A DNA stretch of 64,000 nt from contig NZ_SCTW01000101.1 in NCBI RefSeq assembly GCF_004322395.1, forward strand, positions 1-64,000, written 5' to 3'. A program made the position numbers and the translations under genes. The notes beneath the pieces are model-generated. The model was not told the DNA's origin. It searched no databases and was given only the letters and a program-made list of their open reading frames with translations. The first letter of the stretch is position 1; each line of letters starts with the position of its first letter. The stretch is from Methylobacter sp. (GTDB lineage: Bacteria > Pseudomonadota > Gammaproteobacteria > Methylococcales > Methylomonadaceae). This document shows positions 592 through 41,300 of the stretch, one piece after another.

Positions 592-2454
592 CTACGCGCA
601 AAACTTCTCAATCCGGGCAAGAATGCCTTGGGTATCCAGACCGCACAGCGACAGCAATTCCTCTCGGGTACCTTGCTCGACAAAGCTGTCCGGCAGGCCG
701 ATATTCAACACCGGCATCAGGATTTGTTGCGCTTGCAGGAAATCGTTGACGGCACTGCCCGCACCACCGGCGAGTACGTTTTCTTCGACGGTAATCAGTA
801 CGTCGTGGCTCTTGGCTAATTCAAGTACCAGTTCGGTATCGATAGGTTTGACGAAACGCATGTTGACAACGGTTGCGCCGAGTTGTTTGCCCGCTTCCAT
901 AGACGGGGTTACCATGCTGCCCCAAGCCAGAATGGCAATACGGCTACCTTGGTGACGAATTTCTGCCTTACCCAGCGGCAATGCGGTCATTGTTTTGTTG
1001 ATCGCAGCGCCGGGGCCTTTGCCACGCGGATAACGCACCGAGGCTGGGCCTTGATGCATAAAGCCGGTATAGAGCATTTGCCGGCATTCGTTTTCATCGG
1101 CTGGGGCCATGACCAGCATATTCGGAATGCAGCGCATGTAACTGTAATCGAAACTACCGGCATGGGTCGGACCGTCGGGGCCGACTAAACCTGCGCGGTC
1201 CAATGCGAATAACACATCCAGGTTTTGGATTGCGACATCATGAATCATCTGGTCGTAAGCCCGTTGCAGGAATGTCGAATAAATCGCTACGACGGGTTTG
1301 GCGCCTTGGCAAGCCTGTCCTGCGGCAAGCGTTACCGCGTGTTGTTCGGCAATCGCGACATCGAAATAACGCTTTGGATAACACTCCGAAAATTTGACCA
1401 GCCCCGAACCTTCACGCATAGCCGGAGTAATGCCTAATAAACGCTCGTCTTGTGCCGCCATGTCGCAGAGCCATTCGCCGAATACTTCAGTGTAAGTCGG
1501 ATGCGGGGAGGGCGCTGATTTGGGCAGGCAATCCTTGCTGGGATCGAAAGCCGGTACGCCATGATAGGCCAACGGATCTTTTTCTGCAGGCGGGTAACCC
1601 TTGCCTTTTTGGGTGACGATATGCAAAAAGCGCGGCCCGGTAATATCTTTTAGGTTTTCCAGCGTGGATACCAGCATGTCCATGTCATGCCCGTCAATCG
1701 GGCCGATATAGTTAAAGCCCAGTTCCTCAAACAAGGTGCCCGGTACAATCATGCCTTTCATGTGTTCCTCGGTGCGTCGCGCCAGTTCCCAGACGCTGGG
1801 TATGCTGCTTAAAGCTTTTTTGCTGCCTTCGCGCATTGAGGAATAAAATTTGCTGGACAAAATCTTGCTCAGGTAATTATTCATCGCGCCGACCGGCGGC
1901 GAGATCGACATGTCGTTATCGTTCAGGATCACCAACAAATTAGCATCCAGCGCGCCTGCATGATTCATTGCTTCAAACGCCATGCCGCCGGTGATGCTGC
2001 CGTCGCCGATGATCGCGACCATTTTCTTGTCTTCGCCTTTTAACTCGGACGCAATCGCCATGCCTAAGGCTGCGCTGATCGACGTGCTGGAGTGGCCGAC
2101 GCCAAACGCATCGTATTCGCTCTCAGCCCGGCTCGGAAATGCCGATACCCCGTCTCGGGTTCGAATGGTGGTCATCCGCTCTTTGCGTCCGGTCAGAATT
2201 TTGTGCGGGTAAGCCTGATGGCCGACATCCCAAACCAGCTGATCGGAAGGCGTATCGAATACGTAATGCAAGGCTATAGTCAACTCAACCGTACCTAAAC
2301 CTGCGGAAAAATGGCCGCCGGAAATGCTCACGGTATGGGTTAAATAGTCGCGCAGTTCTTTTGCCAAAGGCTTAAGCTGGTTTTTCGACAGCTTGCGCAC
2401 ATCGGCAGGGGTATTGATGTCTTTGAGCAGAGGGTAGTTATGTAATGTATTCAT
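592..2454 (-). CDS. dxs: 1-deoxy-D-xylulose-5-phosphate synthase
   Basis: Thiamine-diphosphate enzyme that condenses pyruvate and glyceraldehyde 3-phosphate into DXP, first step of the MEP isoprenoid pathway. At 620 residues it has full family length. Visible signatures are the [13 protein letters not shown] stretch with the downstream NDNDMSIS (ThDP/Mg site, near residue 150-180), an [11 protein letters not shown] segment with the catalytic Glu of the transketolase fold, and [15 protein letters not shown]. It is the last gene of the hopanoid run: its ATG follows the copD stop by one base, so translation is probably coupled. Its position suggests precursor supply is co-expressed with squalene and hopanoid synthesis. 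Confidence 0.96.
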
Positions 2455-2455
2455 A

Positions 2456-4093
2456 TTAGTAAAGAGGTTCGCGATAGAACATCAGGATGATGCCAATCTG
2501 AAACAGGGCGGCAACAGAAATAAAACCGGCAATATCCTTGCCTGGTCTGTCCAGTTTTAATTCCAGCCAACGACCGCTGGCCAGAATGAGGGAAAAAATC
2601 CCCATCATGGTATGGCCGACCTGGATAAGGAAGGCACTTTTGGGTTGAAAGCCTACATGGGAATGGGTAAGCAGCATTAAACCGCCAAAAGCCGCCAGCA
2701 ACGGGAAAACAAAAGGCAGTTTGCTGTCCGGGTTTTTGGTTATCCGGGCGCTCAGTTCAATAATGCCGAGCACAAACACCAGTAAGGTCGCAATCCGGTG
2801 CTGCAATACTTCGCCGTTATTAAAAGTACTCTCCCAGAAGCCTATCGGACCCAAAGGCCAAGTTTCCGCATCGCTACGAAAAAACAGGAAAATGCCAAGC
2901 AGGACAAAACCCAGTGGCCAGTATTTGAATTTCTCAAAGCCGGATTTTTGCACGTAAGACAGCATTGCAAAGAAACTCATCACAGTCAGGAAAATGCCGG
3001 AGATGTTATGGTTATAATTCGACCATTCGGTGGCTGCTAGAGAAGGCACTTGGCCGACAATTGCCACACGGCCCGCTTCACCCGCGATTAAATCGGTATG
3101 CGTGGGCGAGCTGGTTCTTGGAATCTGCGGGCTAAAAGTGTTTAAAACTTCCTGCCAGCTTGCGGTCAGGTTTGGAATATCAATAGCCGGGGGCTGGGAA
3201 GCCAAGCTGGCAGCGGTAAATAACAAGGTGACCAAAACAAAGGTTTCCGCTTCAACGTAATAAGGAACGCGGTTATTTAATGCGTGACTGTTGCCGGTAA
3301 TCCCGAATTTTAATACGGCGGATTTATTTAAGAAGGCAAATCCCAGCGCAATGCCCATTAAGATTATTTTTACCGTCAATAAATTGCCGTAGCCGGTGCC
3401 GATCAGGCCGTTCCAGGTATCGATATATTGCAATGCAATAGGCAAACCCGAGATCAGGATCATCGCAACCGAGGCTATGCCGAACTTGGTGAAGCGCTTA
3501 AGCATTAAAGGCCATAATCCCTCGGCAACTTGATTGCTGCTGCGTAAAAGCCAAAGGTTGACCAGTTGGAAAATGCCGCCGATCCAGGCCGCCGCGGCTA
3601 CTTGATGGATGACTGTCAGCGACATCAAGGTAATCTGGTTTTCAAAGCGTCCCGCGCCATGCACCAGCCAAGCGCCGGAAATAATCATCGGCAAAGCCAG
3701 GATGCCGGCTGTTATCCAGTGCTGCTTGGAAAAAGGATTCTTGCTGAGGTATTGATAGCAGTAACCTGCCGAAAATACAGCCAATATGGTGCGTATTATG
3801 CCGCCGATGAACTGCGTTGTATCGGCAAATTCGGGAAACGGCCAGCGTTCAAGTACGCAGGTCATTAACCAAACTTTAAGGATTATTTTAAAAAACTGGG
3901 CGGCAGCGAGCCAAAAACCACCCTTATAGAGAAGAGCGATGGTTTTTTGAAGTAATACCTCTGAATACCCGTCTTGGTAATTCCACGGACGCAATACAAA
4001 AAGTCCCCAGAACAGGCTGCCGATTGCTAGCGAATAGCAAATCAGGTCAAACCCGCCGATAAGGGAATCAAGAAAATCAGCTATGCCGGCCAT
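2456..4093 (-). CDS. copD: CopD-type copper transport membrane protein
   Basis: A polytopic inner-membrane protein of 545 residues with about a dozen hydrophobic segments. The [15 protein letters not shown] stretch (middle third) is the characteristic His-containing helix of the CopD domain. The protein is longer than a bare CopD domain (~300 residues); extra helices lie on both sides. A TAGGAGC ribosome-binding site precedes the ATG, and the gene follows copC by nine bases. CopD proteins work with periplasmic CopC and are linked to copper import or homeostasis. Location between hpnO and dxs is unusual. Exact transport direction cannot be judged from sequence. Confidence 0.85.
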
Positions 4094-4102
4094 TGCAAGC
4101 TC

Positions 4103-4459
4103 CTATTTAGAAACGGAAAAATGAATAACGTCTTCTGTTAAATGACCATCGGCAGCGAAGACTTTAAATCTGAGGGCATAATCGCCTGACTCCAGTGGCG
4201 GAACCTGGATAATGATCTGGCCTTGTTTGCTGCCGGTGGAGGTTGATAGCAATTGATGTTTATCGCCTTTGCTAACCAGGAAAATCTGCGACAAACCCAG
4301 TTCAATCTGGGAATTAAACGACAGTTCGACTTTTGCCGGGGTGTTGGCATGAATGGGAGCGATTTTCAGGGAATAGTCGGTTATCACCGCATGAGCTTCA
4401 GCCCATTGAACCTGACACAATGCTAAGAACAATAAACATATTGAAATGATTTTTTTCAT
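4103..4459 (-). CDS. copC: CopC-type periplasmic copper-binding protein
   Basis: A 118-residue exported protein. I place the start at the ATG at 4459, preceded by GGAGAAAGG, rather than at the in-frame GTG 21 bases upstream which overlaps hpnO. Signal peptide is MKKIISICLLFLALCQ..., with predicted cleavage after AEA leaving an N-terminal His. The mature protein has the Ig-like CopC fold pattern and ends with ADGHLTEDVIHF, so the His1 plus Asp/His set that binds Cu(II) in CopC proteins appears conserved; the Met-rich Cu(I) site is absent. It is directly followed by copD, the usual pair. Confidence 0.88.
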   Translation of the reverse strand: MKKIISICLLFLALCQVQWAEAHAVITDYSLKIAPIHANTPAKVELSFNSQIELGLSQIFLVSKGDKHQLLSTSTGSKQGQIIIQVPPLESGDYALRFKVFAADGHLTEDVIHFSVSK

Positions 4460-4476
4460 TACCTTTCTCCGTTTAA

Positions 4477-5862
4477 TCACTTTTTGCCTTTTAAAGCATG
4501 ACCAGCCAAATTTTTGCCTAAATCCCAGATGGAGCCGGGGATTTGGTGGGTATCGGCTATGGCTTTATCAAATGAGTTGACTATGGTGTCTCGGTCTTTT
4601 TGGGTTAAGTTCAACGGCGGCAACAGTTTGACCACGTTCATGCCGTGTCCTGCAACCTGCGTTAAAATGTGATGTTCTTTAAATAAAGGGATAGTGATCA
4701 TTTGGCAGAACAAGCCTTTATTAGCCGCCTCCAGCATTGCCCAAGCCGCTTTCAGTTTCAAGCTCTTAGGCGACTGGAATTCAATCGCAATCATCATGCC
4801 CTTGCCGCGCGCTTCTTTAAGGAATTCGTATTTCCCGGCCATCGCATTCAGGCTGTCGATAATGTCGGTGCCCACTTTCATGCTGTTTTCCACCAGTTTT
4901 TCATCTTCCATAACATGCAGCGTGGCAAGTCCGGCAGCCATTGCCATATTGTTTTTGGAGAAAGTGGAACCATGCACGACAGCTCTATCCATGCGGTTGT
5001 AAACAGTATCCATGATTTTCTGTGTCATCGCGACCCCGCCGACCGGAACAAAACCGCCGGACAGGGCTTTGGCCATGCAGATCATATCAGGCTTGACGTT
5101 CCAGTGATCGATGGCCCAGAATTTTCCGGTGCGCCCTAAGCCGGTTTGGACTTCATCGGCGACAAACAAAGTGCCGTATTTTTTGCATAAGCGTTCGACT
5201 TCCGGCAAATAATTGTCATCCGGTACATTAACGCCTTTGCCCTGAATAGGTTCGACGATAAAAGCGGCCACGTCTTTGTCGCTTAAAGCTTGTTCCAGTG
5301 CGGTAAGATCATTGAAAGGAACAGCGCTGCAACCGGGTAGTAGCGGTCCGAAACCCTCGCGGAAAATATTTTCGCCGTTCAATGACAGCGACCCCATGGT
5401 CAGACCATGATAGCCGTGTTCGCAGAAGACGATTTTTTCGCGTTTGGTGGTATAGCGGGCAAATTTGATTGCCGCTTCTACCGATTCGGTGCCGGAATTG
5501 CAAAAGAACATTTTGTTCAGGTTTTCCGGTGTGGTTTTCAGGATTTCCTGGGCCAGTAATCCGCTGAGTACCGATACATCCATTTGCACCAAGTTAGGTA
5601 ATTCCAGCGTTAAGGTTTCTGTTAATGCGCTGATAACGGCCGGATGATTGCGGCCGATCGCAAATACGCCGAAACCGCTCAATAAGTCCAGATATTCCGT
5701 GCCTTCCTGGTCGTAGAGATATTGTCCGACAGCTTTTTGATAGTGGCGGTCATAGCCTATGGTCTTTAACACCCTGACCATTTGATTGTTCAAATGTTGT
5801 TCGTGCAGATCGAATTTGTCAGTGCTGTGTTGAGAAAAAAGTTCGGCGATGCTGAATGACAT
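4477..5862 (-). CDS. hpnO: HpnO, hopanoid side-chain aminotransferase (class III, PLP)
   Basis: Class-III aminotransferase of 461 residues, related to ornithine/acetylornithine aminotransferases. FVADEVQTGLGRTG and MAKALSGGFVPVGG (PLP Lys) are visible. HpnO proteins are required for aminobacteriohopanetriol formation in other bacteria, converting the ribose-derived side chain to the amino form. Assignment rests on location immediately downstream of hpnN and the family, since the sequence alone would also fit an ornithine or putrescine aminotransferase. I choose the ATG at 5862 (GAGG upstream) over the in-frame TTG at 5874. Type I methanotrophs are known for amino-hopanepolyols, which fits. 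Confidence 0.82.
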   Translation of the reverse strand: MSFSIAELFSQHSTDKFDLHEQHLNNQMVRVLKTIGYDRHYQKAVGQYLYDQEGTEYLDLLSGFGVFAIGRNHPAVISALTETLTLELPNLVQMDVSVLSGLLAQEILKTTPENLNKMFFCNSGTESVEAAIKFARYTTKREKIVFCEHGYHGLTMGSLSLNGENIFREGFGPLLPGCSAVPFNDLTALEQALSDKDVAAFIVEPIQGKGVNVPDDNYLPEVERLCKKYGTLFVADEVQTGLGRTGKFWAIDHWNVKPDMICMAKALSGGFVPVGGVAMTQKIMDTVYNRMDRAVVHGSTFSKNNMAMAAGLATLHVMEDEKLVENSMKVGTDIIDSLNAMAGKYEFLKEARGKGMMIAIEFQSPKSLKLKAAWAMLEAANKGLFCQMITIPLFKEHHILTQVAGHGMNVVKLLPPLNLTQKDRDTIVNSFDKAIADTHQIPGSIWDLGKNLAGHALKGKK

Positions 5863-5878
5863 TAGGTACCTCAAAAAA

Positions 5879-8506
5879 TTAAATGCTTTTGCCGCTGAAA
5901 GCAGGCAGGACTATTAAAGAACACATCACTGTGAAAGTAAGGCCTATGGCCAATACTAAACCCATGCTTGCCATACCCTGATGAGCGGTGAAAGCAAGGC
6001 TTGAAAAACTGCACAAGGTTGTTATGGAGCTGAAAATAATGCCTCGGGTGGTGCTGCTTTGCAGTAAATTTTCATCTTCACATGAACAGGAATGGTGCCT
6101 GTGCATGATAAGGATGCTGCTGTCGATGCCCATGCCGAGCAGTAAGGGCAGGGCAATGATATTAGCGAAATTGAAAGGGTTATCCAGTAACACGTTGGTT
6201 GCGCCGGTCAGCATAGCGGCAAGCAATAAGGGCATGATGATCAATAGGGTCTTTCTGATGCTTCTGTACATTAGCAATAATAACACCACAATGGCAACAA
6301 AAGCACCGCTAAAGGCTTTAATAAATGCCTTGACTATCGCATCGCCTCCGGCCTGGTTGATAATCGGAAGCCCCGACACATTACTGTCAACGGTTTGCAC
6401 TTCGGTGACGAATTCTTTCAAATTGTCCGGCTTGTTTTGATCTTTTTCTGGCATGATCAGGACTCTATACAAGCCGGTAGCGCTGATCCAGTGCGATCTT
6501 ATCTCCAACGGTAAATCGTCCAGCCCAAACGGTATGGCTGTCAAGCTGGTTCTAAGGCGTTCTATGGTAAATGGCAGCAAGCCTAAGATGTTTTTTTCCA
6601 ATTGTATGTAACCGGCTGCCGGAGTCTGAGCGCCGTCCGCACGTTGGATAAACGTTTCGATGCGCTGTTGTAACTGCTGTAAAGTTTGCTCCGATACATT
6701 AGGGGATTTTTCAATGATGGCTTTTTTAAGTTCTTCATTGAATTTGACCAATGCGTCCCGTTGGTTTGCAGTATCGAGCGTGTTATCGAAGTTTTTAAGT
6801 TGCCCGCCCAGCATAAGATTTAAATCTTCAATTGTTGCCAGTTTTTCGTCTTGATCTTTAGCGACAAAACTCGCCAAAGTGATGGACTCGTGTACCGATG
6901 GCTGTTGCGCCAGTTGGCTGGTAATTTTTCCGGCCGCTTCAAGACTGCTTGCCAAAGCGGTTAGGGCAAAAGGAGAATCGGTTTTGGATGTTAGCAGTTC
7001 TTTGATAGTTACGACCGATTCGCTGTTTGGGTCTCTAAGGTTGATAGGATTGTAATCAAAGGTAAGATCGGTCAATACAAAGCAGGCGCCGATGCCTAGC
7101 AATATGGAGACGATTTTAATGCCCGTTGAAAAGCGAAAAGGGAAAGTGATTATAAATGCCGGAGTTAACGGCGAGCGTATCGGCTTTGCGTTATCGACAG
7201 GAAAAACGCAGAATAAGGCCGGCAATACGGTTAGTGAAATAATCAGGCCGATAAAGATGCCGCCGCCTGAAATAACGCCCAATTCGGATACCCCTGCATA
7301 ATCGGTCGGTATAAACGCAAAAAAGCCGATTGCTGTGGCAAGGGCGCATAAAAACAATGATGATCCGACATCTCTGATACTGATCAGAATGGCTTCACTA
7401 TTCGATAGGCCGTCCGCCTTGCCTTCTCGATAATGCAGGCAAATATGAACCGCGTAATCAACGCCAAGACCAATATATAAACTGGCAAAGGCAATCGAAA
7501 TAACATTTAAATGCCCTACAGTAATGGCCGCGAACCCGGCTGTGAATATTAAGCCCATAACCAGAACGATATAGGTTGTAATCAGTAATCTTACTGATCG
7601 CAGGCCTATCCATTGGACTCCGAATACTAAAATCAACGACAACAAACCTGAGAAAGTGGCGCCTTTGGTGACGCTCTCAAGTTCTTCATGTTCCAACGCG
7701 GTTTCGCCGGTCATCCGAATTTTCAGCGACGGATTTTCTGCCATCATGGCATGACTGATTTCTCGAGCTGCCGATAGTGCGACATCAGCGGGCAGCATCT
7801 CATTAAAATGCATTTTAGGCTTGGCGATGACGATAGTCCGGTTAAGTTGGGGTTGTGCGTCTGCGCTTTTATCGTTGTTCGGCTTATTTTCGGAAAGTAT
7901 GTTCTGCCAGGACAAATAGTGCGATTGACCGTATAACTGATTTTTCAGAACATCGTCGATAGCAATAAGTATCGGATTTAAGTCCATAGGCAGGGCGTTG
8001 TCATGCCGGTTAAGTGCTTGGCCGATAATGCCGAATAGGCCTTCGAGGTGATAATTCTGTGCCAGATGCCCTATAAAAGGCTGGGCATCAGTGAGTTTTT
8101 TGGCGTAATGGTCCAGATCGTTTTGATCGAGATAAAGCAGGGCCTGTTGCCTGAAAAAAGCATTGTCAGTGGGTATGTAGGCGGAGTCAAAGCGATCATT
8201 TGCTTTGCTTAACTGTTCGGCAAGTTTGCCGGCAGCCAAGGACGTTTCTTCCGGCGTTTCGGCTTCAACTGCAAAAATAATGGTAGTGGCATCCTCGGGA
8301 AATGCCTGGTTAAAGTGTGCCTGATTTTGCTGGAAAGGCAGGTTAGGCGACAGCATTTCAGCAGTGTTGGTGTTAATCTCCAAATTTTTAAGGGTGTAGT
8401 GCAAAGTCGCACCACAGAGCAACAGAGATAACAATAACAGCGTCCACGGACAGCGCATGATTTGGCGTTCGCACCAGCCGATAAGGGTGTTGAAAAAAGA
8501 TGACAT
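5879..8506 (-). CDS. hpnN: HpnN, RND-family hopanoid transporter
   Basis: An 875-residue RND/MMPL transporter. One N-terminal transmembrane segment is followed by a large periplasmic loop, then a block of helices with GLGVDYAVHICLHY, a second large loop (residues ~480-690), and a second block with LGMGIDSSILIMHRHH. This duplicated arrangement with Asp in the fourth/tenth helix motifs is the RND pattern. HpnN moves hopanoids to the outer membrane in Rhodopseudomonas and Burkholderia. It sits between hpnG (5 bases) and hpnO (16 bases to the chosen start) in the same direction, supporting the hopanoid assignment over a generic MMPL exporter. Confidence 0.92.
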   Translation of the reverse strand: MSSFFNTLIGWCERQIMRCPWTLLLLSLLLCGATLHYTLKNLEINTNTAEMLSPNLPFQQNQAHFNQAFPEDATTIIFAVEAETPEETSLAAGKLAEQLSKANDRFDSAYIPTDNAFFRQQALLYLDQNDLDHYAKKLTDAQPFIGHLAQNYHLEGLFGIIGQALNRHDNALPMDLNPILIAIDDVLKNQLYGQSHYLSWQNILSENKPNNDKSADAQPQLNRTIVIAKPKMHFNEMLPADVALSAAREISHAMMAENPSLKIRMTGETALEHEELESVTKGATFSGLLSLILVFGVQWIGLRSVRLLITTYIVLVMGLIFTAGFAAITVGHLNVISIAFASLYIGLGVDYAVHICLHYREGKADGLSNSEAILISIRDVGSSLFLCALATAIGFFAFIPTDYAGVSELGVISGGGIFIGLIISLTVLPALFCVFPVDNAKPIRSPLTPAFIITFPFRFSTGIKIVSILLGIGACFVLTDLTFDYNPINLRDPNSESVVTIKELLTSKTDSPFALTALASSLEAAGKITSQLAQQPSVHESITLASFVAKDQDEKLATIEDLNLMLGGQLKNFDNTLDTANQRDALVKFNEELKKAIIEKSPNVSEQTLQQLQQRIETFIQRADGAQTPAAGYIQLEKNILGLLPFTIERLRTSLTAIPFGLDDLPLEIRSHWISATGLYRVLIMPEKDQNKPDNLKEFVTEVQTVDSNVSGLPIINQAGGDAIVKAFIKAFSGAFVAIVVLLLLMYRSIRKTLLIIMPLLLAAMLTGATNVLLDNPFNFANIIALPLLLGMGIDSSILIMHRHHSCSCEDENLLQSSTTRGIIFSSITTLCSFSSLAFTAHQGMASMGLVLAIGLTFTVMCSLIVLPAFSGKSI

Positions 8507-8511
8507 GCTGT

Positions 8512-9231
8512 TTATTGGTCTTGGCTGGGTAAAACGGTCAAATGGCCGAGCTGTTTAGCGACCAATTTTAACGTGTTTTTTGCGTTATTGAAATGCAGGC
8601 CCAGTTTTATAAGTCCCGGTAATTCGGCAGGATGTAGCGCGATAAATAATAACAATTTACCGAGTATGATGTCACCCTCATTGTTAAGCGAGTGATTGAT
8701 GGCTTTGGGTAAATCCATGCTAACCGGATCGGCAATGGCCCGGATAGCTAGAAAAGGCGCATTGTGTTGCCGGGCAACTTTGGCTACGGCGATACTTTCC
8801 ATATCCAATGCGACAGCGCCGGTTTGTGTATGCAGATGCTTTTTATCGTTGCCGGTAGCTACGATGTTTTTGCTTTCAGCTAAACTGCCGAGGTGGATTT
8901 TTAGAGAGGTTGAAAGTAAGTTTGCGGCATGGCTGTGCCAGTCGGAGCGAATGCCGATTTGATTACTCTCAACATCTATCAGGGTATCTGCCAAGACCAG
9001 ATCGCCCGGTTTTAATGTTTCGATGAGGGCGGCGGCGCAACCCCAGCTAATCAATCGGGTAGCGCCTTGTGCGATCAATAACTCGGATGCTGTGCGTGCA
9101 TTGTCGGCACCTGCGCCGGAATAGGCGAGAACGGTATTATCGGTAATAAAAACACAGCGCCCTTTATCAATTTTTTTTGAGGTCAGGGTGCTGATTTCTT
9201 CCGGTAAAGCGACGACAATGCCAGTGATCAC
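8512..9231 (-). CDS. hpnG: HpnG, adenosylhopane nucleosidase/phosphorylase
   Basis: A 239-residue member of the purine nucleoside phosphorylase / MTA-SAH nucleosidase superfamily. The N-terminus GIVVALPEEI and the ALDMESIAVAKVA motif (purine/ribose site with the catalytic-region Glu) are visible. In hopanoid synthesis HpnG releases adenine from adenosylhopane made by HpnH, leaving ribosylhopane or its phosphate. Its ATG overlaps the shc stop by four bases (ATGA), implying translational coupling. A general MTA/SAH nucleosidase is less likely given the context. Confidence 0.9.
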   Translation of the reverse strand: MITGIVVALPEEISTLTSKKIDKGRCVFITDNTVLAYSGAGADNARTASELLIAQGATRLISWGCAAALIETLKPGDLVLADTLIDVESNQIGIRSDWHSHAANLLSTSLKIHLGSLAESKNIVATGNDKKHLHTQTGAVALDMESIAVAKVARQHNAPFLAIRAIADPVSMDLPKAINHSLNNEGDIILGKLLLFIALHPAELPGLIKLGLHFNNAKNTLKLVAKQLGHLTVLPSQDQ

Positions 9232-11183
9232 TTGTTGTTGAGCTCGTTACGATAGCGAGCCAAGGCCCAAAGCGGGAAAAACTTGTCGTAACCGTGATAT
9301 TTAAGATAGAAAACTTTCGGAAAGCCGGGCGCGGTAAAACATTCGTCATTCCATACGCCGTCGGTTTTCTGGTTGCGTAAGATGAAGTCAATGCCCGCTT
9401 TTACTTCATGGCTGTGAGCCTCGCCGGCCGCCATTAGCGCCAAAACAGCCCAGGCTGTTTGGAACGCAGTGCTGAAATGATATTTGCCGCTATGGCTAAC
9501 ATCGTGATAGCTGTAGTTGTCTTCACCCCAGCCGCCATCGCCGCGTTGTACGCTTTTTAGCCATTTTGCGGCTTTGGTATACAACGGGTCGGTTTTGGGT
9601 AGGCTGGTTTGCTCCAGGCCAAGCAATACCGACCAAGTGCCGTAAATGTAGTTGGTACCCCAACGACCGAACCACGAGCCGTCCTGTTCTTGTTCACTAC
9701 GAATGTATTCGACAGTGCGCTCTAGCGCAGGTAAATATTCTGCGTGATCCTGCGCCACTCTAGCCATCAGCATCGCACACCGCGCGCTGACATCGGATGT
9801 CGGCGGATCCAATAACGCTCCGTGATCGGCAAACGGAATTTCATTCAGGTAATAATAAGTGTTATCGACATCGAATGCACCGTAGCCGCCGTTTTTAGAT
9901 TGCATACCGACTATCCAACGGGTGGCGCGATGTATCGATTCGTCCAAATGGGGCAAGCTTGACTCCGCCATCGCAAAAGCCACAACAGCCGTATCGTCGA
10001 CATCGGGATAATACGGGTTTTCAAATTGAAATGCCCAGCCGCCGCCTGCTAAGTCAGGCTTGGAAATTCGCCAGTCACCGGGTTCGTCTGATAATTGTTT
10101 GCTTTTCAGCCAGTCGTAAGCGCGAGTCAGGCTTTGGCTGTTGCTGATTTTGTCGGCTTCTTGTAAAGCCAGCGCGGCAAGTGCTGTGTCCCAAACCGGA
10201 GATAAACAGGGTTGACAGTAGGCATCATGCTCATTGATGACCAGTAGTTTGTCTATAGCTTTACGCGCAGTAACAACATGATGATGATCGGCAGGCATGC
10301 CCAGTAGCAGCATGGCTTCATAAGCGCCAACCATTGCGGGAAAAATCCCGCCCAAGCCGTCCTCGCCGTTCAGGCGTTCAATAAACCAGTCTTTGGCTTT
10401 TTTGATAGCCAATTCATGAGCCTTTTTCGGAATTAACGGGCGAGTGGCCAAGCCCAATTTATCCAAGCCCAGAAAGATTTTATTTAACAGCGTTCTTTCT
10501 GGAAAGTAATGCTTTTCTTCATCGGGATGGGTGATGAAAAGCTCCAGTATATTGATGTTATTAGGGTTTTTCGCTGTCGCTTTTAAGGTGCAAAGAATAA
10601 ACAGCGGCACCATAACGGTTCTTGACCAGTATGATACTTTATCCAAATGAAAAGGAAACCAGTTGGGAAACAGCATGATTTCAACAGGAATATACGGTAC
10701 ACCGCGCCAAGGCAATTGCTCAAACGTTGCTAGCGCAATACGTGTAAACACGTTGGCTTTTGCCGCGCCGCCCTGACCGAGGATATAGTTTCTTAGCCGG
10801 GTCATGTGTGGGGCGTCGACAGCATCCCCGGCCATTTTTAAAGCGAAATAGACTTTAACGCTGCAACTAAGATCGCCCGCACCGCCGGTAAATAGCGGGT
10901 AACTGCCGTCTTCAGATTGGCGGGGTCTTAAATAATTGGCAATTTTAGCTTGCAGCGATTCATCGATTTCACCCAAGTAGTGCATCATCATGATGTACTC
11001 TGATGGTATCGTGCAGTCTGCTTCCAGTTCGAATACCCAATAGCCATCTTTATCTTGCAGACTTAATAATTTCTCTTGAGCTTTGTTAATGGCTTGATTG
11101 AGATTGTGGGCAAAATTGTTAGCAGTATTCGATGAGTTCGAAATAGTGCCGATATTTATCTCTGAGTTTGCTTCGTTAAACAT
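9228..11183 (-). CDS. shc: Squalene-hopene cyclase
   Basis: Cyclises squalene to hopene/hopanol at the inner membrane. The 651-residue length is typical. The catalytic Asp-rich motif DVDDTAVV sits near residue 395, and several QW repeats are recognisable (for example QSKNGGYGAFDVDN, QEQDGSWFGRWG, QRGDGGWGEDNY, QKTDGVWNDE). An AAGGACG ribosome-binding site precedes the ATG. Gene order squalene synthase > shc > hpnG marks the core of the hopanoid operon. No truncation seen. Confidence 0.98.
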   Translation of the reverse strand: MFNEANSEINIGTISNSSNTANNFAHNLNQAINKAQEKLLSLQDKDGYWVFELEADCTIPSEYIMMMHYLGEIDESLQAKIANYLRPRQSEDGSYPLFTGGAGDLSCSVKVYFALKMAGDAVDAPHMTRLRNYILGQGGAAKANVFTRIALATFEQLPWRGVPYIPVEIMLFPNWFPFHLDKVSYWSRTVMVPLFILCTLKATAKNPNNINILELFITHPDEEKHYFPERTLLNKIFLGLDKLGLATRPLIPKKAHELAIKKAKDWFIERLNGEDGLGGIFPAMVGAYEAMLLLGMPADHHHVVTARKAIDKLLVINEHDAYCQPCLSPVWDTALAALALQEADKISNSQSLTRAYDWLKSKQLSDEPGDWRISKPDLAGGGWAFQFENPYYPDVDDTAVVAFAMAESSLPHLDESIHRATRWIVGMQSKNGGYGAFDVDNTYYYLNEIPFADHGALLDPPTSDVSARCAMLMARVAQDHAEYLPALERTVEYIRSEQEQDGSWFGRWGTNYIYGTWSVLLGLEQTSLPKTDPLYTKAAKWLKSVQRGDGGWGEDNYSYHDVSHSGKYHFSTAFQTAWAVLALMAAGEAHSHEVKAGIDFILRNQKTDGVWNDECFTAPGFPKVFYLKYHGYDKFFPLWALARYRNELNNK

Positions 11184-11194
11184 AAGTTACGTCC

Positions 11195-12295
11195 TTAAAG
11201 TTTTACCGGGGCTTCTGAGGATGGTGCTGAATATGTCCAGTCGGGCGTTTTGAGCTCACGACTTGTTAAGTTGAAAAGGAAACTAAGCATAGCGTTGCTG
11301 CGTCCAGTTAACCGGGTCACAAGAATAGTAGCTTTCACACTGTTGCGAGTGATTTTGACTTGGTCGGAATTGTTGAAATTCAGATTTTGCTTGATTTTTT
11401 TTAAAGTCAAAATGGCCATGCCTAATGCCCATAGGCAGAAGTTGCGTATGCCGACCTCATGAGAGGGGAGCAATAATGTATATTTTAGTGCATTGTGCAA
11501 ATGGCTATGTGCGATGCCGATCAAATGCTCTAAGCCTTTTCTAAAATTTTCGGAATGGGCTTCTCTTGTCAGGTTTTTAAGGTCGAACCCTGTTTCCGTA
11601 AAAATATCCTGTGGTAACCAACAAACGCCTCGCCCGGCATCATCCCAAATATCTTTCAATATATTGGTCATCTGCAATCCCTGACCAAAAGATACTGAGA
11701 GTGTAAGCAGTTCGTCTTTGTGCTGTGCGATTTCCGCCGAATAATGGCAAAAAAGCTTGGCTAGCATTTCTCCTACGCAACCGGCAACGTAATAGCAGTA
11801 TTTATCCATGTCGGCGAGTGTCGCAAGACCACCATGCAGGTCCATGGCTTGGAAAATCGGCATACCTTCAGCCATAGTTTCTACGCAGGTAGCCAGCGCC
11901 TCAACTTGATCGACTTCAAACTTATGGGTGATTTGAATTACCCGCGGCAACACATGAATTAAAGTGTGTTCGGCGGGAATAGTTTGCTCGGAAAGCAGCG
12001 GTGCAAGTTCTACAGCAAACGGCTCAGAATTTGCTCCTGTTTTTACGATATGAATAAACTCCGAACAAAAATATTTTTTTTGTTCGGAAGATAAGGAAAC
12101 TTCATCTTCTATAGTGTCGACAATGCGGCACAGCAAATAAGCGTTGGCTACTACGCTGTATAACTTTTCCGGTAACTGAGGAATGGTCAGCGCAAATGTT
12201 CTGGAGACGCCCTCAAGTAACAGTGCCTGAAATTCATCATCAGACAATTTGCTGAGTGATTTTGGGTTGTCCAAAGATATTTGAGTTTCACTCAT
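11195..12295 (-). CDS. Squalene synthase (farnesyl-diphosphate farnesyltransferase)
   Basis: A 366-residue trans-isoprenyl diphosphate synthase of the squalene/phytoene synthase family. The first Asp-rich site is DTIEDE (near residue 60) and the second is NILKDIWDDAGRG (near residue 210). SRTFALTIPQLP and NAYLLCRIVDTIED resemble the single-enzyme squalene synthases (eukaryote-like) more than the shorter HpnC/HpnD pair found in many bacteria; no hpnC/hpnE relatives are adjacent. It is the first gene of the minus-strand hopanoid run and the most probable source of squalene for SHC. No clear Shine-Dalgarno site precedes the ATG. A phytoene synthase is the main alternative. Confidence 0.85.
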   Translation of the reverse strand: MSETQISLDNPKSLSKLSDDEFQALLLEGVSRTFALTIPQLPEKLYSVVANAYLLCRIVDTIEDEVSLSSEQKKYFCSEFIHIVKTGANSEPFAVELAPLLSEQTIPAEHTLIHVLPRVIQITHKFEVDQVEALATCVETMAEGMPIFQAMDLHGGLATLADMDKYCYYVAGCVGEMLAKLFCHYSAEIAQHKDELLTLSVSFGQGLQMTNILKDIWDDAGRGVCWLPQDIFTETGFDLKNLTREAHSENFRKGLEHLIGIAHSHLHNALKYTLLLPSHEVGIRNFCLWALGMAILTLKKIKQNLNFNNSDQVKITRNSVKATILVTRLTGRSNAMLSFLFNLTSRELKTPDWTYSAPSSEAPVKL

Positions 12296-12782
12296 AATAT
12301 TATTTTTTAATGTTGACCTGAAAGGTAAGTTTTAAGTTAATAAATAGCAATAATAGACTGTTTGTTGGTATTTTGCAAAGCAATGTTGTTTTGTTGCAAA
12401 TATGCACAGCGGATAGTCTTATAAAACGAAACATTTTTAATAAAAATAAATGGTTATCTATTTTACTTCATAGTTTACGCTAGATGCATGAAGTAGTGGT
12501 TAGAGTGGAAAATTATATATATTTAACTGTAAAACTGGAGTCATAAGTTAAAAGATAGTATTCTAGTCAACAATAGATAAGCGATTGTATTATATAATAG
12601 CCTTATTGATATTTATTGGTTTCCATTATTAAAAAATAGTAAATAGTTGTATTTTTGTGAACATAGTTTGTTTGTTGCTTTATTGATACAGGTTTGTCAT
12701 TCCGTAGCGTATGCGGATTCAGGACGGTCATTTTTTATATGGGCGTCATTAGATTTTATTGGGTTTTTTGGAGGGTTTGCTT
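12296..12782. promoter_or_regulatory. AT-rich divergent intergenic region of the hopanoid locus
   Basis: 487 bases with no credible gene separate the squalene synthase start from the hpnH start, which point away from each other. Both hopanoid transcription units must be driven from here. The stretch is strongly AT-rich, but I could not pick a convincing -35/-10 pair or a specific operator. The last part carries the GGAGGG ribosome-binding site (12770-12775) that fixes the GTG start of hpnH. Confidence 0.55.
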
Positions 12783-13892
12783 GTGGGTGTTCCTTTACGT
12801 CAGCAGTTGACTGTAGGTAGTTATTTAATTAAGCAGAAGTTGAAAGGGGTTAAGAAATATCCTTTGGTGCTGATGCTTGAGCCTTTGTTTCGTTGCAATT
12901 TAGCCTGTGCGGGCTGCGGTAAAATTGATTATCCAGATGATATTCTCGACAAGCGGCTTTCATTTGAAGAATGTATGCAGGCTGTAGACGAATGCGATGC
13001 GCCCATGGTATCGATTCCAGGGGGCGAGCCGCTTATCCACAAAGAAATGCCGCAAATTGTTGAAGGTATTATTGCGCGGAAGAAATTCGTTTACCTGTGC
13101 ACTAATGCACTTTTATTGAAAAAGAGAATTGACGATTATAAGCCATCACCTTACCTGACATTTTCAATTCATTTAGATGGCATGCGCGAAAGGCATGATA
13201 CGTCTGTTTGCCAGGAAGGTGTTTTTGAACGAGCTGTTGAAGCCATAAAATTGGCGCTGGAAAAGGGATTTAGAGTTACCGTGAATTGCACTCTGTTTCA
13301 GGGCGAGCAAGCCCAGGAAGTTGCCGATTTCCTGGATTATGCGATGGAGTTAGGTGTTGAAGGCGTGACCATCGCCCCGGGTTTCAGCTATGAGCATGCG
13401 CCTAAGCAGGATGTATTCATTAAAGGGAGCGATGTTAAAGACTTATTCCGGGGTATTTTCAAAATAGGTAAAAACCGTAACTGGAAATTAAATCATTCAT
13501 CGTTATATCTTGATTTCTTGGCCGGTAACCAAAATTACGATTGTACGCCATGGGGCAATCCTACCCGTAACGTGTTTGGTTGGCAAAAACCTTGTTATTT
13601 ACTGGCTGATGAAGGTTATGTTTCAACTTTTCAGGAGCTTTTGGATACCACACCCTGGGATAAATACGGGACTGTTAATAATCCTAAATGTGCAAGCTGC
13701 ATGGCGCATTGCGGTTATGAAGCGACAGCTGTTGAAGATATGCTAAGTCATCCGTTGAAAGGATTGTTAATATCAATTAAAGGCCCAAGAACCGAGGGAG
13801 AAATGGTTCCTGAGGCCAATCCCGAGTATGCAAGAGAAGAGCTTTCATCAACGATTGCAGGAATTCCTGTGAGAGTAGAAGTTGTCGATTAA
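12783..13892 (+). CDS. hpnH: HpnH, radical SAM adenosylhopane synthase
   Basis: Radical SAM protein that couples a 5'-deoxyadenosyl group to diploptene, the first side-chain step of bacteriohopanepolyols. The cluster motif is CNLACAGC (three Cys, CxxxCxxC), followed by SIPGGEPLIH and later Cys residues near the C-terminus (CASCMAHCGYE). I choose the GTG at 12783, with GGAGGG seven bases upstream and the family-typical start VPLRQQLTVGSYL, over the in-frame TTG at 12759. The resulting protein has 369 residues. It is divergent from the shc run. Confidence 0.95.
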   Translation: MGVPLRQQLTVGSYLIKQKLKGVKKYPLVLMLEPLFRCNLACAGCGKIDYPDDILDKRLSFEECMQAVDECDAPMVSIPGGEPLIHKEMPQIVEGIIARKKFVYLCTNALLLKKRIDDYKPSPYLTFSIHLDGMRERHDTSVCQEGVFERAVEAIKLALEKGFRVTVNCTLFQGEQAQEVADFLDYAMELGVEGVTIAPGFSYEHAPKQDVFIKGSDVKDLFRGIFKIGKNRNWKLNHSSLYLDFLAGNQNYDCTPWGNPTRNVFGWQKPCYLLADEGYVSTFQELLDTTPWDKYGTVNNPKCASCMAHCGYEATAVEDMLSHPLKGLLISIKGPRTEGEMVPEANPEYAREELSSTIAGIPVRVEVVD

Positions 13893-14019
13893 AATATATT
13901 CATGCTGGCTGCTTAGGGTGTAGACGAGAGGGGCGCTGGAGACGAGCCCAAATTTTTTCGTCTTCGCCTTGCGCCTTTTGCCTGATTTAATTAGGTATTG
14001 GTTTTATGAGGTTTTGATT

Positions 14020-14637
14020 ATGGTTTTAAAAAAATTGAAGTTAGCTGTTGTTTTTATGATCCTTTTATTAGGGACGATAAATGCTTTTGCTATAGATGAA
14101 GGCGGGGCAACAGCAAGACAAGTTGTAGAGAAATTTCAGGCCGATCTTATTGCCGTGATGAAAGAAGGCAAAAAACTGGGATATGCCGGAAGATATGAAA
14201 AATTAAAAGATCCTGTTTCAAACAGCCACGAGCTGACAAAAATTGCTCGTATTGTTGTCGGTAAGGAATGGGAGAAATTGTCCGAAGAACAGCAACAAAA
14301 GCTGGTCGATGTATTCAGCAAGTTAAGTATTGCTTCTTATGCGCACAACTTTAAAGATTATTCGGGAGAATCGTTTGTATTTGATTCAGAAGAAGAAACA
14401 ACAAGAGGCGGTGTTGTTGTGCATTCTCATTTTGTCATTCCTGACGACAAGCCAGTGAAATTCGATTACATGCTAAAGGAAAAGGGTAACAGCTGGCGCA
14501 TCATCAATATTATCGCCAATGGGGTGAGTGACTTGGCCTTGAAAAGATCGGAATACACGGCTATTCTACAGCGAGAAGGCTTTGACGCTTTAATAAATAA
14601 GATTAACGAAAAAATTGACAATTATTCAAAACAATAG
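14020..14637 (+). CDS. hpnM: HpnM, hopanoid-associated MlaC/Ttg2D-family periplasmic protein
   Basis: A 205-residue exported protein. The ATG at 14020 has GAGG eight bases upstream and begins the signal peptide MVLKKLKLAVVFMILLLGTINAFA; in-frame codons further upstream are probably not translated. The mature part belongs to the MlaC/toluene-tolerance Ttg2D fold (periplasmic phospholipid-binding), with the conserved region where a lipid pocket forms (WRIINIIANGVSDLALKRSEY). HpnM homologues occur in hopanoid clusters and may shuttle hopanoids or phospholipids. mlaA follows after five bases. Confidence 0.85.
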   Translation: MVLKKLKLAVVFMILLLGTINAFAIDEGGATARQVVEKFQADLIAVMKEGKKLGYAGRYEKLKDPVSNSHELTKIARIVVGKEWEKLSEEQQQKLVDVFSKLSIASYAHNFKDYSGESFVFDSEEETTRGGVVVHSHFVIPDDKPVKFDYMLKEKGNSWRIINIIANGVSDLALKRSEYTAILQREGFDALINKINEKIDNYSKQ

Positions 14638-14642
14638 GTTTT

Positions 14643-15632
14643 ATGCTAATGAACAAACCATATAACGGCAATCGAAGCGTTAAAATGCAACATACATTCT
14701 CAGGTTTGCTAATCGGAATTGCCATCGGATTGAGCGGTTGTGCAACAACAGGCGATGTTGAGTCGCAAACTGTAGCAAATAAAGCTGATCCTTATGAGAA
14801 CTTCAATAGAAAGATGTTCGGTTTTAACGATAAAGTCGATAATTATGTAGCCGAACCTATTTCAAATGCCTATAAATGGATAACTCCACAGTTCATGCAG
14901 ACAGGTGTTTTCAATTTCTTTAATAACCTGAAAAATGTAAACGTGGTGATCAATGATGTTTTACAGGCTAAATTTGCTCAAAGCGCGGAAGATACCGGAC
15001 GGCTTGCAATTAATTCAACAGTAGGTTTGGGTGGTTTGTTTGATGTTGCCAAGCATGTAGGGCTGGAACAAAATGAGGAAGATTTCGATCAGACTTTGGC
15101 GGTATGGGGTGTGCCTCAGGGTTCTTACTTGGTGCTTCCTCTTCTAGGACCCTCAACTGCCCGCGGTATTCCTGGCGCAGTATTTGATACGGCGGCAAAT
15201 CCCGCCAGTTACGTAGGTATGCCTGTACAACTGGTGTCTATGCTGAATTCGCGCGCCAGCGCTGAAGGTGCACTGAAATTTATCGATGAAGCCGCACTAG
15301 ACCCTTATGTATTCACGCGCGAATCTTTTTTGCAATGGCGTAATAATTTAGCTACGGATGGAAAAGCGGAAGCTTCTACGGATGTTGATGGTTTTGAAGA
15401 CGAGTCTCTTGGTGGCGATAAAAACGCAGTTTCCGGACAAGCTTTAGCTGGCGAAGCCAACACAAGCACTAAGTCAGGGTTTGCTTTGCGCCTGGATGCA
15501 GATACTAAAGAGTTTGGACAAGCTTCGCATTCATTTAGTAGTGTTGCTCAATCTTTTAATGATACTTCCAAATCGTTTGAAGATGCCAGTAGCAAGTTGG
15601 ATAAATTGAAAAAATCCAAAAAATATAGATAA
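14643..15632 (+). CDS. mlaA: MlaA/VacJ-family outer-membrane lipoprotein
   Basis: A 329-residue lipoprotein. The lipobox LSGC lies near residue 33 if translation begins at 14643; a later in-frame ATG (14685) would give a more compact signal peptide. The conserved MlaA core follows: DPYENFNRKMFGFND, LGGLFDVAKHVGL, EDFDQTLAVWGVPQGSYLVLPLLGPST and DPYVFTRE. A polar C-terminal extension of about 100 residues, ending in Lys-rich coiled-coil-like sequence, is longer than in typical MlaA. MlaA removes misplaced lipids from the outer leaflet with MlaC; here it pairs with HpnM, suggesting a hopanoid-locus lipid-trafficking unit. Confidence 0.9.
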   Translation: MLMNKPYNGNRSVKMQHTFSGLLIGIAIGLSGCATTGDVESQTVANKADPYENFNRKMFGFNDKVDNYVAEPISNAYKWITPQFMQTGVFNFFNNLKNVNVVINDVLQAKFAQSAEDTGRLAINSTVGLGGLFDVAKHVGLEQNEEDFDQTLAVWGVPQGSYLVLPLLGPSTARGIPGAVFDTAANPASYVGMPVQLVSMLNSRASAEGALKFIDEAALDPYVFTRESFLQWRNNLATDGKAEASTDVDGFEDESLGGDKNAVSGQALAGEANTSTKSGFALRLDADTKEFGQASHSFSSVAQSFNDTSKSFEDASSKLDKLKKSKKYR

Positions 15633-38305: not shown

Positions 38306-41300
38306 CTATTGATGCACCCAATCCGCCCCTAAAGTGCCTTGCAGCAGGTGCAGATAGGCCGGATCATTGATTTCGACCAGTTTACGCCCAACCGCTTCAA
38401 GTTTCTGGCTTAATTCGGCGCGGTTAGCGGAATCATTCTGTTCCGTTTTACTCAATTGCTGTTGAATATAAGCTTTGTGTTGTTGCCAAAGCTCACTGTC
38501 GCGTTGCTGTTTGATTTCAAGACGCTGTTGATACCAGTCGCTTTGGAGTAAGTAGTCGCGGGTGAACATGGCGCGAATATCAGGAGCGCTGGCGGTTTTG
38601 CCTTCATACTGGCCGTGGGCCATAATGTGTAGCAGCGCTTTTAAAGGCGGGCAGGCATCATCAATGGAACCGTCCTGAAAATACAGCAGCGCTACTCGTT
38701 GCTGTGCTTCATAAACATTGTCGATACCGTCAACATAGCTGGGCAGATCTTGCGTTTCCGGTCTCAACATAGCTTCGTCAAATACCGCCGTTGGGTAATC
38801 GAACATCTTGCCGAAATTGGTATGTACAAACCGCTCGGTAATGCGATAACCCAAGCGGCTTTGAAATACGGTACGGCCTTCGTATTCGAAATCTTCCAGT
38901 TTTTCCAGTTGTCCTTTTTCAATCAAATATTGCGGGTCGCGCTGGGCTACCGGCAAGCGCGACCATATCTCAGGGATTAGCAGGCTGATGTCATGATCGA
39001 TTCGACGTTTAGAGCCGATGAAACCCGCGGCCGTGGAAAAACCGTCGTAGCCGCACAGGATAAAGGAAACCAGCGCGGTATTCAGGTCGGCGGTGGCGGA
39101 TACTGCATTGAACGGGCCTTTGGTCAGTGCGCCTTCGGAACCGGCACCGGTTGTGGAGGGCGATTTTCCGGTTAGGCTGCAAATAAAATCCATAAACAGT
39201 TCAGGCAACTCCTGATAGTGGATCGGATTATAGATAGCCAGCGGCCGGATATTTGCTTCAAGATCGGCCGGATTGTTGCGCCGTCCTGTTAATACTTCGT
39301 TAACCGGAAAATAAACGGTTTGATCGGCATTAAGTCCACGGGCTAAACGGGTGGACTGTTCAGCAATATAGCGCATTTTGGGGTTGGCTATATCAGGGCG
39401 AAGTTGCAGGTAGCGGACATTGAGGCTGGGTTTTCCGTCAACCAGACGGGGATGAGCCGATGAGACGAAGTACTCGCCATCCTTGCCGTTGACTGCTTGA
39501 TGGATGACGTTTTGCATCGGCTCGCTGAATTCGTCGAAGTGAATGACATCTTCAATGAATTCGCGAGCGTCTTGTGCGTTAAGCGGCTGGAAATTGGAGA
39601 TAAAGTTGTCCGTGCGCGAAAAATCCAGCTCGGTCTGTAAATCGGTGCCTCGGTGAACCGCATCGTCAGGACGTTGAAAAAAGCTTTGCTCGCAGTTATC
39701 GACCAATTTAACGCTGGGATTTTTATAATCGGGATTAAGCCCGGTCAGGTAATGCACCGGCACGACGGTGGATGCGGAAATATCGTCTTCCAACTGAATT
39801 TTTGCTGAGGCGATAAAATCCTGGCGTAGTTTAAAAACCCGCCACGCGCCTTTTTCATCAAAGCCTACGCGCAGATAACTGGCTATCAGTTTGCGGCCTT
39901 GAAACTTCAATTCGTTACCAGGATAACTGTTGACCATATCGACGGAAAAATGTTTCCTCCAATCCTGCCCCCATTCTTCCTTGTAAAAACGTTTAATCAT
40001 CAGCGCCACAGCCAATATATGCTGGGGTATTGTTGCCAGCCACTGGTTGTGGGTATCCGAAAATTCGGTTTCAGATGGAGTCAGTAGTTTGATAACCGAG
40101 CCCAAGGTGCGTTCATTGCTGAGTAGGCGGCGTTGGTCGAGTCCATGCAGGGCCGGATTGCGAAACCGAGTGGAATAATCGCGTTCGAATATATCGGTGA
40201 CTATATCCATATCTTTGTCGAAATCATCGACAAAGATAGCGCCGGAAATAATAGCTCCGGCAATCGATTTGGAAATTTCCGATTTGCCGCCTCCTGATAC
40301 TGTGCTCGGCTTGTGGCAGAAAGTGCCTTCCTGATGAGTGCCGATTAAGCGCCAGCTGGGCGCATGAGGGTGGCGTTCCATATGGATTTTAAAGCCGTTA
40401 GGATAAATATAAGTGTGGCCGAACAGCAATTTAAGTGTATGCGTCTGCCTGTTATGCGTCCAGCTGATTTGCTGCTGTTGAATGTTGAACTTCGCCGAGT
40501 TGGGGATATAAATAATGTCGGGATAGTGCTTATCAACAGCATAGCCTTCGTCTTTAGGCTCTATTACAGGAGCCAACTGACGGCAGACTTTGTCGAAAGA
40601 ATAATGCTCGCTGATATAAGAAGTATGCGGCAAAAAGATTTCTCCGAGGATGACTCTCGGGAAAGCCAGCGCGCCTCCTGAATGTTCTTCTTCAGCACCG
40701 CCATATAAATTGGCTGAATAGCTGATATGGGATTTTATTTCCTTTTTGCTGTAGCCGAAATAGTTATCGGCAATGATCGTAACAATCACTCCTTGCATAT
40801 TGCGGCATACCAGTTTAAAGGGTTGGCCGTTATTGTAGAGTTCGTCTTCCTGTTGCCAGCACATGCCGTCCTTGCGTTGGCGCTCGGTCGCATCGTCAAA
40901 ATGCGGCAGGCCGAGATCCTTTTTCCGGCAATGAACCAGGTGCGAGGCAAGAATAATGCAGCCGGTATGACCGGTCCAATGGTCAATATCCAATGCGGCG
41001 TCGTTTTCCGGCAGGAACGGGTCGCCCGCGTTGCCGAAAATAGATTCGACAAAATCCAGGTTGGCGACCAGTCCGCCTGGGGCGAAAAACCGGACTTCCA
41101 TGGTTTTGACCGGCATAGTGTCGGAAACTTCCGGACATACGATAGGTCTCATCAGCGATGATACCCAAAGTTTTGCGCTGTTCGGTTGGGCGCTGGTAAA
41201 AGGTAGGGACAACAGGTCGTCGGGAGGCGTCAGGGCTGTACGCAGCAACGCCGCATAAGCCTCTACCGGTACTTCGTTTTTATCAGCCGGAACCGGAAGA

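Follow-up and report, generated by a model that had tools for sequence, protein, structure and literature searches.

In Bacillus subtilis YcnJ, a copper ligand of CopC and a histidine of CopD are both required for growth at low copper, according to the accessible text of PMC13344008. The same two families occur as an adjacent pair in methane and ammonia oxidizers, and the accessible part of PMC6189053 places copC-copD in the extended pmo/amo operons of alphaproteobacterial methanotrophs and of ammonia oxidizers. In hopanoid (hpn) gene clusters, copC-copD are not named among the hopanoid genes in the available portions of PMC12583986 and PMC6373157. Here, we analyzed a stretch of 64,000 nucleotides from Methylobacter sp. 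(contig NZ_SCTW01000101.1, positions 1 to 64,000; referred to as the window), where a copC-copD pair is found inside a run of hopanoid genes. On the evidence of sequence and gene context, this pair is probably a hopanoid-associated Cu(II)-binding module that provides copper handling for the hopanoid pathway. No report of copC-copD in a hopanoid cluster was found in the openly accessible literature, subscription literature being outside the search, and the accessible text of PMC9449456 and PMC4531530, which contain both hopanoid and CopC/CopD terms, reports no linkage.

A copC-copD pair within a hopanoid operon

The list of open reading frames and the profile matches revealed eight genes on the minus strand, in the order sqs > shc > hpnG > hpnN > hpnO > copC > copD > dxs. 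As in known hpn gene clusters, sqs, shc, hpnG, hpnN, and hpnO are accompanied by divergent hpnH-hpnM. All eight same-direction genes listed in the initial annotation were recovered with profile matches, and its range of intergenic gaps, −4 to 17 bases, is right when the ATG at 4459 is taken as the copC start. The gaps are 11 (sqs-shc), −4 (shc-hpnG), 5 (hpnG-hpnN), 9 (copC-copD), and 1 (copD-dxs) bases. That between hpnN and hpnO is 4 bases from the listed TTG start and 16 from the hpnO ATG at 5862, and that between hpnO and copC is 17 bases with the ATG at 4459 and −4 with the GTG at 4480. The ATG at 4459 is the best copC start, having GGAGAAAGG (ribosome-binding site) immediately 5′ of it. 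None of pmoCAB, amoCAB, and pmoD adjoins copC-copD in the window, where the neighbors are hopanoid genes and dxs. This is in contrast with the extended pmo/amo operons, since the run contains neither pmo nor pmoD and hopanoid genes stand on one or both sides of the pair.

Because the 17- and 1-base junctions leave no room for a promoter, and because descent of the pair follows that of the hopanoid genes (see below), co-expression of copC-copD with the hopanoid genes is likely. A consensus scan for internal promoters and terminators decides nothing on this point, given that the sites were no commoner than in shuffled sequences (23 versus 22.7 and 19 versus 17.9).

Both proteins score above their Pfam cut-offs (Table 1). 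The His1 and DGH copper ligands that had been pointed out in CopC are both present, and among 121 distinct CopC sequences H1 is retained in 121, D82 in 119, and H84 in 120. The window copC is the sole PF04234 match in its own genome (4.59 Mb, 157 contigs), which also carries a second, short CopD-like frame elsewhere. Five other CopC proteins of the order (Methylococcales) have 19 to 25% identity to that of the window. Separately, four loci (L145, L146, L158, and L159; G, C, L, g, and f numbers are our handles for genomes, contigs, loci, genera, and families) of genus g4, which we take to be Methylomonas, encode a CopC-like type whose mature part starts with EG and reads EDGL; since His1 and DGH are missing, this type appears to be a protein without the copper ligands.

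The CopC of Methylosinus trichosporium OB3b (5icu, MtCopC subfamily) is the best sequence match of the window CopC (E = 3e-18) and the best fold match to its structure model (TM 0.83), with His1 and D-x-H kept. The identity in the fold alignment is, however, 28%, and the window CopC is encoded in a hopanoid cluster and not beside pmo genes. The equivalent of PfCopC Glu27 is a serine, as judged from its place in the F-N-S motif and not from an alignment with PfCopC, and serine is found there in 111 of the 121 sequences. The accessible text of PMC7529816 describes Glu27 of PfCopC as less conserved in the MtCopC group.

The structure model of CopD comprises a CopD part (approximately residues 1 to 302) and a second part (approximately residues 350 to 545), and seven histidines are invariant across 60 aligned rows, two of which come from outside the order. 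The combination of CopC plus CopD resembles that of the YcnJ and YebZ import proteins. Unlike these, copC and copD of the window are separate genes, no YtkA domain was found in a Pfam scan of the window proteins, and CopD has an additional C-terminal membrane part of approximately 190 residues with invariant histidines of its own. A Foldseek search with CopD gave no match at E ≤ 0.001; the helical-bundle matches are weak evidence on a cytochrome bd-like fold of CopD part 1, and the 50 fold matches listed include no structure of the CopD family, an absence that is uninformative.

Given that YcnJ requires both the CopC ligand and the CopD histidine, copper import or hand-over would be the most economical activity for the pair. 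In such a mechanism, copC-copD would be transcribed together with sqs-shc-hpnGNO, and exported CopC would bind one Cu(II) via His1, Asp82, and His84. It would then hand the metal to the membrane protein CopD, as proposed for YcnJ of B. subtilis, and CopD would shift it across or into the cytoplasmic membrane. The gene context suggests that this copper handling may serve the making of hopanoids, their transport, or hopanoid-rich membranes.

Linkage, inheritance, and occurrence outside the order

To follow the pair across the order, 121 genomes, including that of the window, were searched for CopC and HpnN, the results being those among the matches listed, and 160 stretches around the matches were fetched for mapping of the window proteins. 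With the window excluded, copC and copD immediately follow hpnO, in the same orientation, in 56 of the 73 genomes where shc and hpnO could be read (f4, 27/33; f5, 1/1; f6, 9/9; f1, 19/27; f2, 0/2; f3, 0/1). In another 18 genomes, scored from coordinates only, shc and copC share one strand, with copC 2.2 to 2.4 kb behind, a spacing close to the length of hpnG plus hpnO. The 18 comprise all 14 genomes of g4 together with G072, G078, G082, and G094, and copD follows copC in all 7 that were examined. Overall, 75 of 95 scored genomes (window included) have copC either next after hpnO or at the corresponding spacing from shc, and linkage to shc/hpn genes is present in four families, f1, f4, f5, and f6.

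Three of the scored negatives (G048, G001, and G002) have shc without an adjacent copC, G001 and G002 being drafts scored from contig coordinates alone. The 26 unscored genomes are 18 of f7, 2 of f8, five f4 drafts (G093, G097, G103, G109, and G111), and G038, whose contig ends at hpnO. Counted by locus, 69 of 80 named hpnO loci carry copC and copD behind hpnO, and Methylobacter tundripaludum SV96 (L164/L068) likewise has the pair there; the 11 without the full pair include L177, L207, and L213, which end less than 340 bases past hpnO and were counted as misses. The recurrence of the gene order across these genomes indicates that it is not due to chance. It is not unique to this strain, and a recent insertion is thereby ruled out.

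The genes around the pair vary. Where clusters of g5, g8, g10, g11, and f5 were read, they lack hpnN and keep copC-copD; the same is true of one g1 genome and one g13 genome and, judging by the spacing, of g4. The order hpnO-copC-copD-dxs of the initial annotation is common in its first three genes, while dxs comes next in family f1 only; in f4 and f6, dxs lies past hpnH where it was seen. A convergent hpnM often stands right after copD in f4 and f6, so that the pair is flanked by hopanoid genes on both sides. In genus g2, which is presumably Methylotuvimicrobium, the pair lies outside the main cluster, between a second hpnN and dxs. It is absent from the operon in g3 (4/4), probably Methyloprofundus, and g9 (2/2), and in both genera dxs comes 20 to 58 bases behind hpnO; a PF04234 match together with a long CopD at another location was seen in just one g3 genome, G098. 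In g26, G001 (f2), and G010 (f3), copC-copD is located elsewhere, without neighbors recognized by the hopanoid reference set; in locus L138, copD is at the contig end.

Pairwise distances across 55 clusters correlate with r = 0.96 for CopD-SHC (squalene-hopene cyclase), 0.88 for CopC-SHC, and 0.935 for SHC-HpnO. Since the CopD distances track those of SHC, the pair has been inherited with the cluster. A quick tree of CopD, with long branches for L062, L140, L243, and L244, gave an f4 clade (support 94) and an f6 clade (support 100). These sequence comparisons fit a single ancient acquisition, after which the pair descended vertically and was lost several times. Searched against 72,556 plasmid records, two CopD queries gave no match at E of 1e-20 and 1e-15, and a mobile origin of the pair was rejected on this ground.

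Outside the order, full-length CopD frames (532 to 631 amino acids) were found in 3 of the 397 other genomes of a phylum sample and in 7 genomes of a class sample of 369. The aligned part covers approximately the whole CopD in six of these 10 carriers and begins at residue 43, 127, 130, or 133 in the other four. SHC exceeds its cut-off in 10 of 10 carriers, the base rate in the phylum sample being 46 of 397. Within the phylum sample alone, SHC is present in 3 of 3 CopD carriers (Fisher P = 0.0015). The 10 carriers are not 10 independent cases, since they represent six families. In G565, which has no SHC, a partial CopD match (29% over 150 residues) was excluded as not full length and would make the count 10 of 11.

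One carrier from another class, G128, has HpnA, an MlaC-like gene, copC, copD, HpnN, HpnM, and dxs in one stretch (L244), with HpnA scoring 348 bits (cut-off, 368) and HpnN 974 bits, and SHC is 8.4 kb past copD. A search centered on G128 covered 385 genomes of that class and placed this CopD in 21 of them, from 11 families; SHC status and neighborhoods were read for G128 and G465.

Features of the cluster and its putative promoter region

The coordinates of the features are collected in Table 1. In the divergent intergenic region between hpnH and sqs (12296 to 12758), sqs and hpnH are each preceded by a strongly conserved block. For the block before sqs, 94 loci, among them that of the window, gave nhmmer matches with E values below 1e-3. 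The two best remaining matches (E = 0.004), in L062 and L066, lie approximately 520 bases before the g2 hpnN-copC-copD-dxs genes; being the same locus in two species, they amount to one weak case of shared regulation.

Table 1. Features of the hopanoid cluster in the window
Feature	Coordinates	Strand	Basis
sqs, squalene synthase, first gene of operon	11195..12295	-	PF00494 (SQS_PSY) 189 bits
shc, squalene-hopene cyclase	9228..11183	-	TIGR01507 900 bits (cut-off 431); SQHop_cyclase
hpnG, hopanoid-associated phosphorylase	8512..9231	-	TIGR03468 177.9 bits, slightly below cut-off of 187.1
hpnN, hopanoid transporter of the resistance-nodulation-division (RND) type	5879..8506	-	TIGR03480 893 bits (cut-off 752)
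hpnO, aminotransferase (TTG start listed; ATG 5862)	4477..5874	-	PF00202 (Aminotran_3) 333 bits; position
copC, predicted periplasmic Cu(II)-binding protein, MtCopC kind	4103..4459	-	PF04234 51.5 bits (cut-off 23.3); mature from His codon 4393
copD, two-part membrane protein, 545 aa	2456..4093	-	PF05425 56 bits (cut-off 32.1); invariant histidines; structure model
dxs, final gene of run	592..2454	-	TIGR00204 905 bits
Conserved promoter-like block 5′ of sqs	12336..12405	-	85-region alignment; contains TTTGCA-18-TATTAT
hpnH, divergent to operon	12759..13892	+	TIGR03470 560 bits
hpnM	13969..14637	+	TIGR03481 224 bits
mlaA-like lipoprotein gene after hpnM	14643..15632	+	PF04333 240 bits

The name hpnO was given on the basis of the class III aminotransferase match, the place of the gene, and the gene order conserved in relatives, the closest named relatives being Methylobacter; no HpnO model is among the 25 listed of 70 NCBIfam matches for the window. 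The squalene synthase looks like a one-enzyme synthase and not like HpnC/HpnD, since TIGR01559 (squal_synth) scores best, with 124.7 bits (cut-off, 286.75) against 73 for HpnD and 61 for HpnC.

Further copies of cluster genes were also observed. In four f1 loci (L057, L128, L132, and L133), dxs occurs twice at the cluster, past mlaA and again behind copD. The genome of the window encodes a second HpnN outside the cluster (G000:C85:12196-14643, 855 bits), and several relatives also have an extra HpnN above the cut-off. It encodes as well a second cyclase-like protein (G000:C48:8697-10673; TIGR01507 241 bits, below the cut-off), perhaps an oxidosqualene or related cyclase. Elsewhere in the window, a minus-strand open frame of 1,151 amino acids (38306 to 41761) had no Pfam match at E = 0.001.

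Alternative explanations and significance

The conserved linkage, the co-divergence with shc, the kept copper ligands, and the co-occurrence with SHC beyond the order lead us to favor, with modest confidence, the reading of copC-copD as a long-standing component of the hopanoid cluster of this order, passed on by vertical descent, with a copper handling that would serve hopanoids. The pair would then be neither a stray copper-resistance insertion nor an accessory of particulate methane monooxygenase (pMMO). As judged from gene neighborhoods, it travels with hopanoid genes and not with pMMO.

Several observations weigh against this reading. Twenty of the 95 scored genomes have no pair beside the cluster, and since several (g7, g9, and most g3) lack this type, hopanoid genes can manage without it. 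In other classes, two of the three carrier contexts read (L242 and L243) show CopD without recognizable hopanoid neighbors. In none of the seven class-sample carriers, which are draft genomes, are copD and shc on one contig, and 43 of the 46 SHC genomes of the phylum sample are without this CopD. Moreover, CopC is below the cut-off of the NCBIfam copper_CopC equivalog NF033814 (46.5 versus 95 bits), and CopD is below that of the copper_CopD equivalog NF033808 (54 versus 195 bits), a model of 295 positions without the second part present in the window CopD. Finally, the main text of a copper microarray study of M. capsulatus (PMC4831470), in its accessible part, names a different copC, within MCA2168-2179, and term searches of it found nothing on hopanoid genes. 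In this organism sqs, shc, and dxs are MCA0812, MCA0813, and MCA0817 or near.

The initial annotation had proposed that the pair supplies copper to pMMO-bearing intracytoplasmic membranes, made together with stiffening hopanoids. That interpretation is supported in part: the pair is a component of the cluster, is kept well beyond this strain, and has no space for a promoter of its own at the 17- and 1-base junctions. The explanation by pMMO and its membranes, however, we regard as unlikely. The pmo/amo operons described above, the methanotroph source of the nearest solved CopC (5icu), and the wide linkage in an order of methanotrophs all speak in its favor, but g3 and g9 possess the cluster and have no pair in the operon. 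In addition, G114, probably the genome of the g3 strain INp10, has no PF04234 match, yet INp10 is reported to have pmoCAB. Also against a pMMO role is the spread of this CopD type over 11 families in the class to which G128 belongs, where L244 ties it to hopanoid genes.

A general copper-import pair may instead have joined the operon in an ancestor and been kept by inertia, in which case the linkage would be uninformative on function. The clean absence in g3 and g9, with dxs close behind hpnO, and the location of the pair elsewhere in g26, G001, and G010 are compatible with such a passenger. We nevertheless consider it quite unlikely, given that four families retain the linkage although hpnN and dxs vary around the pair, that CopD co-occurs with SHC outside the order, that L244 links the pair to hopanoid genes in a different order, and that the g2 copy adjoins another hpnN.

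It is very improbable that the pair, with its two-part CopD, forms a copper-dependent redox unit dedicated to hopanoids on the periplasmic side, which would oxidize the side chain at C-31 and, in some lineages, next at C-30. Such a unit would provide a step still missing on the way to aminotetrol and aminopentol and perhaps to bacteriohopane-pentols and -hexols of other classes. A copper-dependent oxidizing unit on the bacteriohopanepolyol side chain (C-31 and C-30 hydroxyls; aminotetrol and aminopentol) is likewise very improbable. It has in its favor that the accessible text of a 2025 survey (PMC12583986) gives no candidates near hpn clusters for extra side-chain hydroxyls, together with a loose agreement with lipid inventories. 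Against it, G098 of g3 has its long CopD elsewhere, the lipid comparison covers few strains, some of them tentatively identified, the helical-bundle matches of CopD are weak evidence, and PfCopC is redox-silent in the accessible part of PMC7529816. M. alcaliphilum has no aminopentol above detection, yet g2 keeps the pair, and aminopentol was rejected as a strict correlate of the pair for this reason.

The preferred reading, a copper module that serves hopanoids, bears on membrane lipids that are major fossil biomarkers and whose pathway still has parts without genes. A conserved copper pair that keeps its ligands within the cluster is a concrete candidate for an unrecognized hopanoid function, a candidacy that rests also on one hopanoid cluster from another class and on the presence of SHC in 10 of 10 outside genomes. 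It also cautions that copC-copD of methanotrophs should not be taken as parts of pMMO by default. The question of copper and hopanoids becomes testable by a single deletion, and the pairing in most methanotrophic gammaproteobacteria examined and in one genome of another class hints at an unrecognized link between the two.

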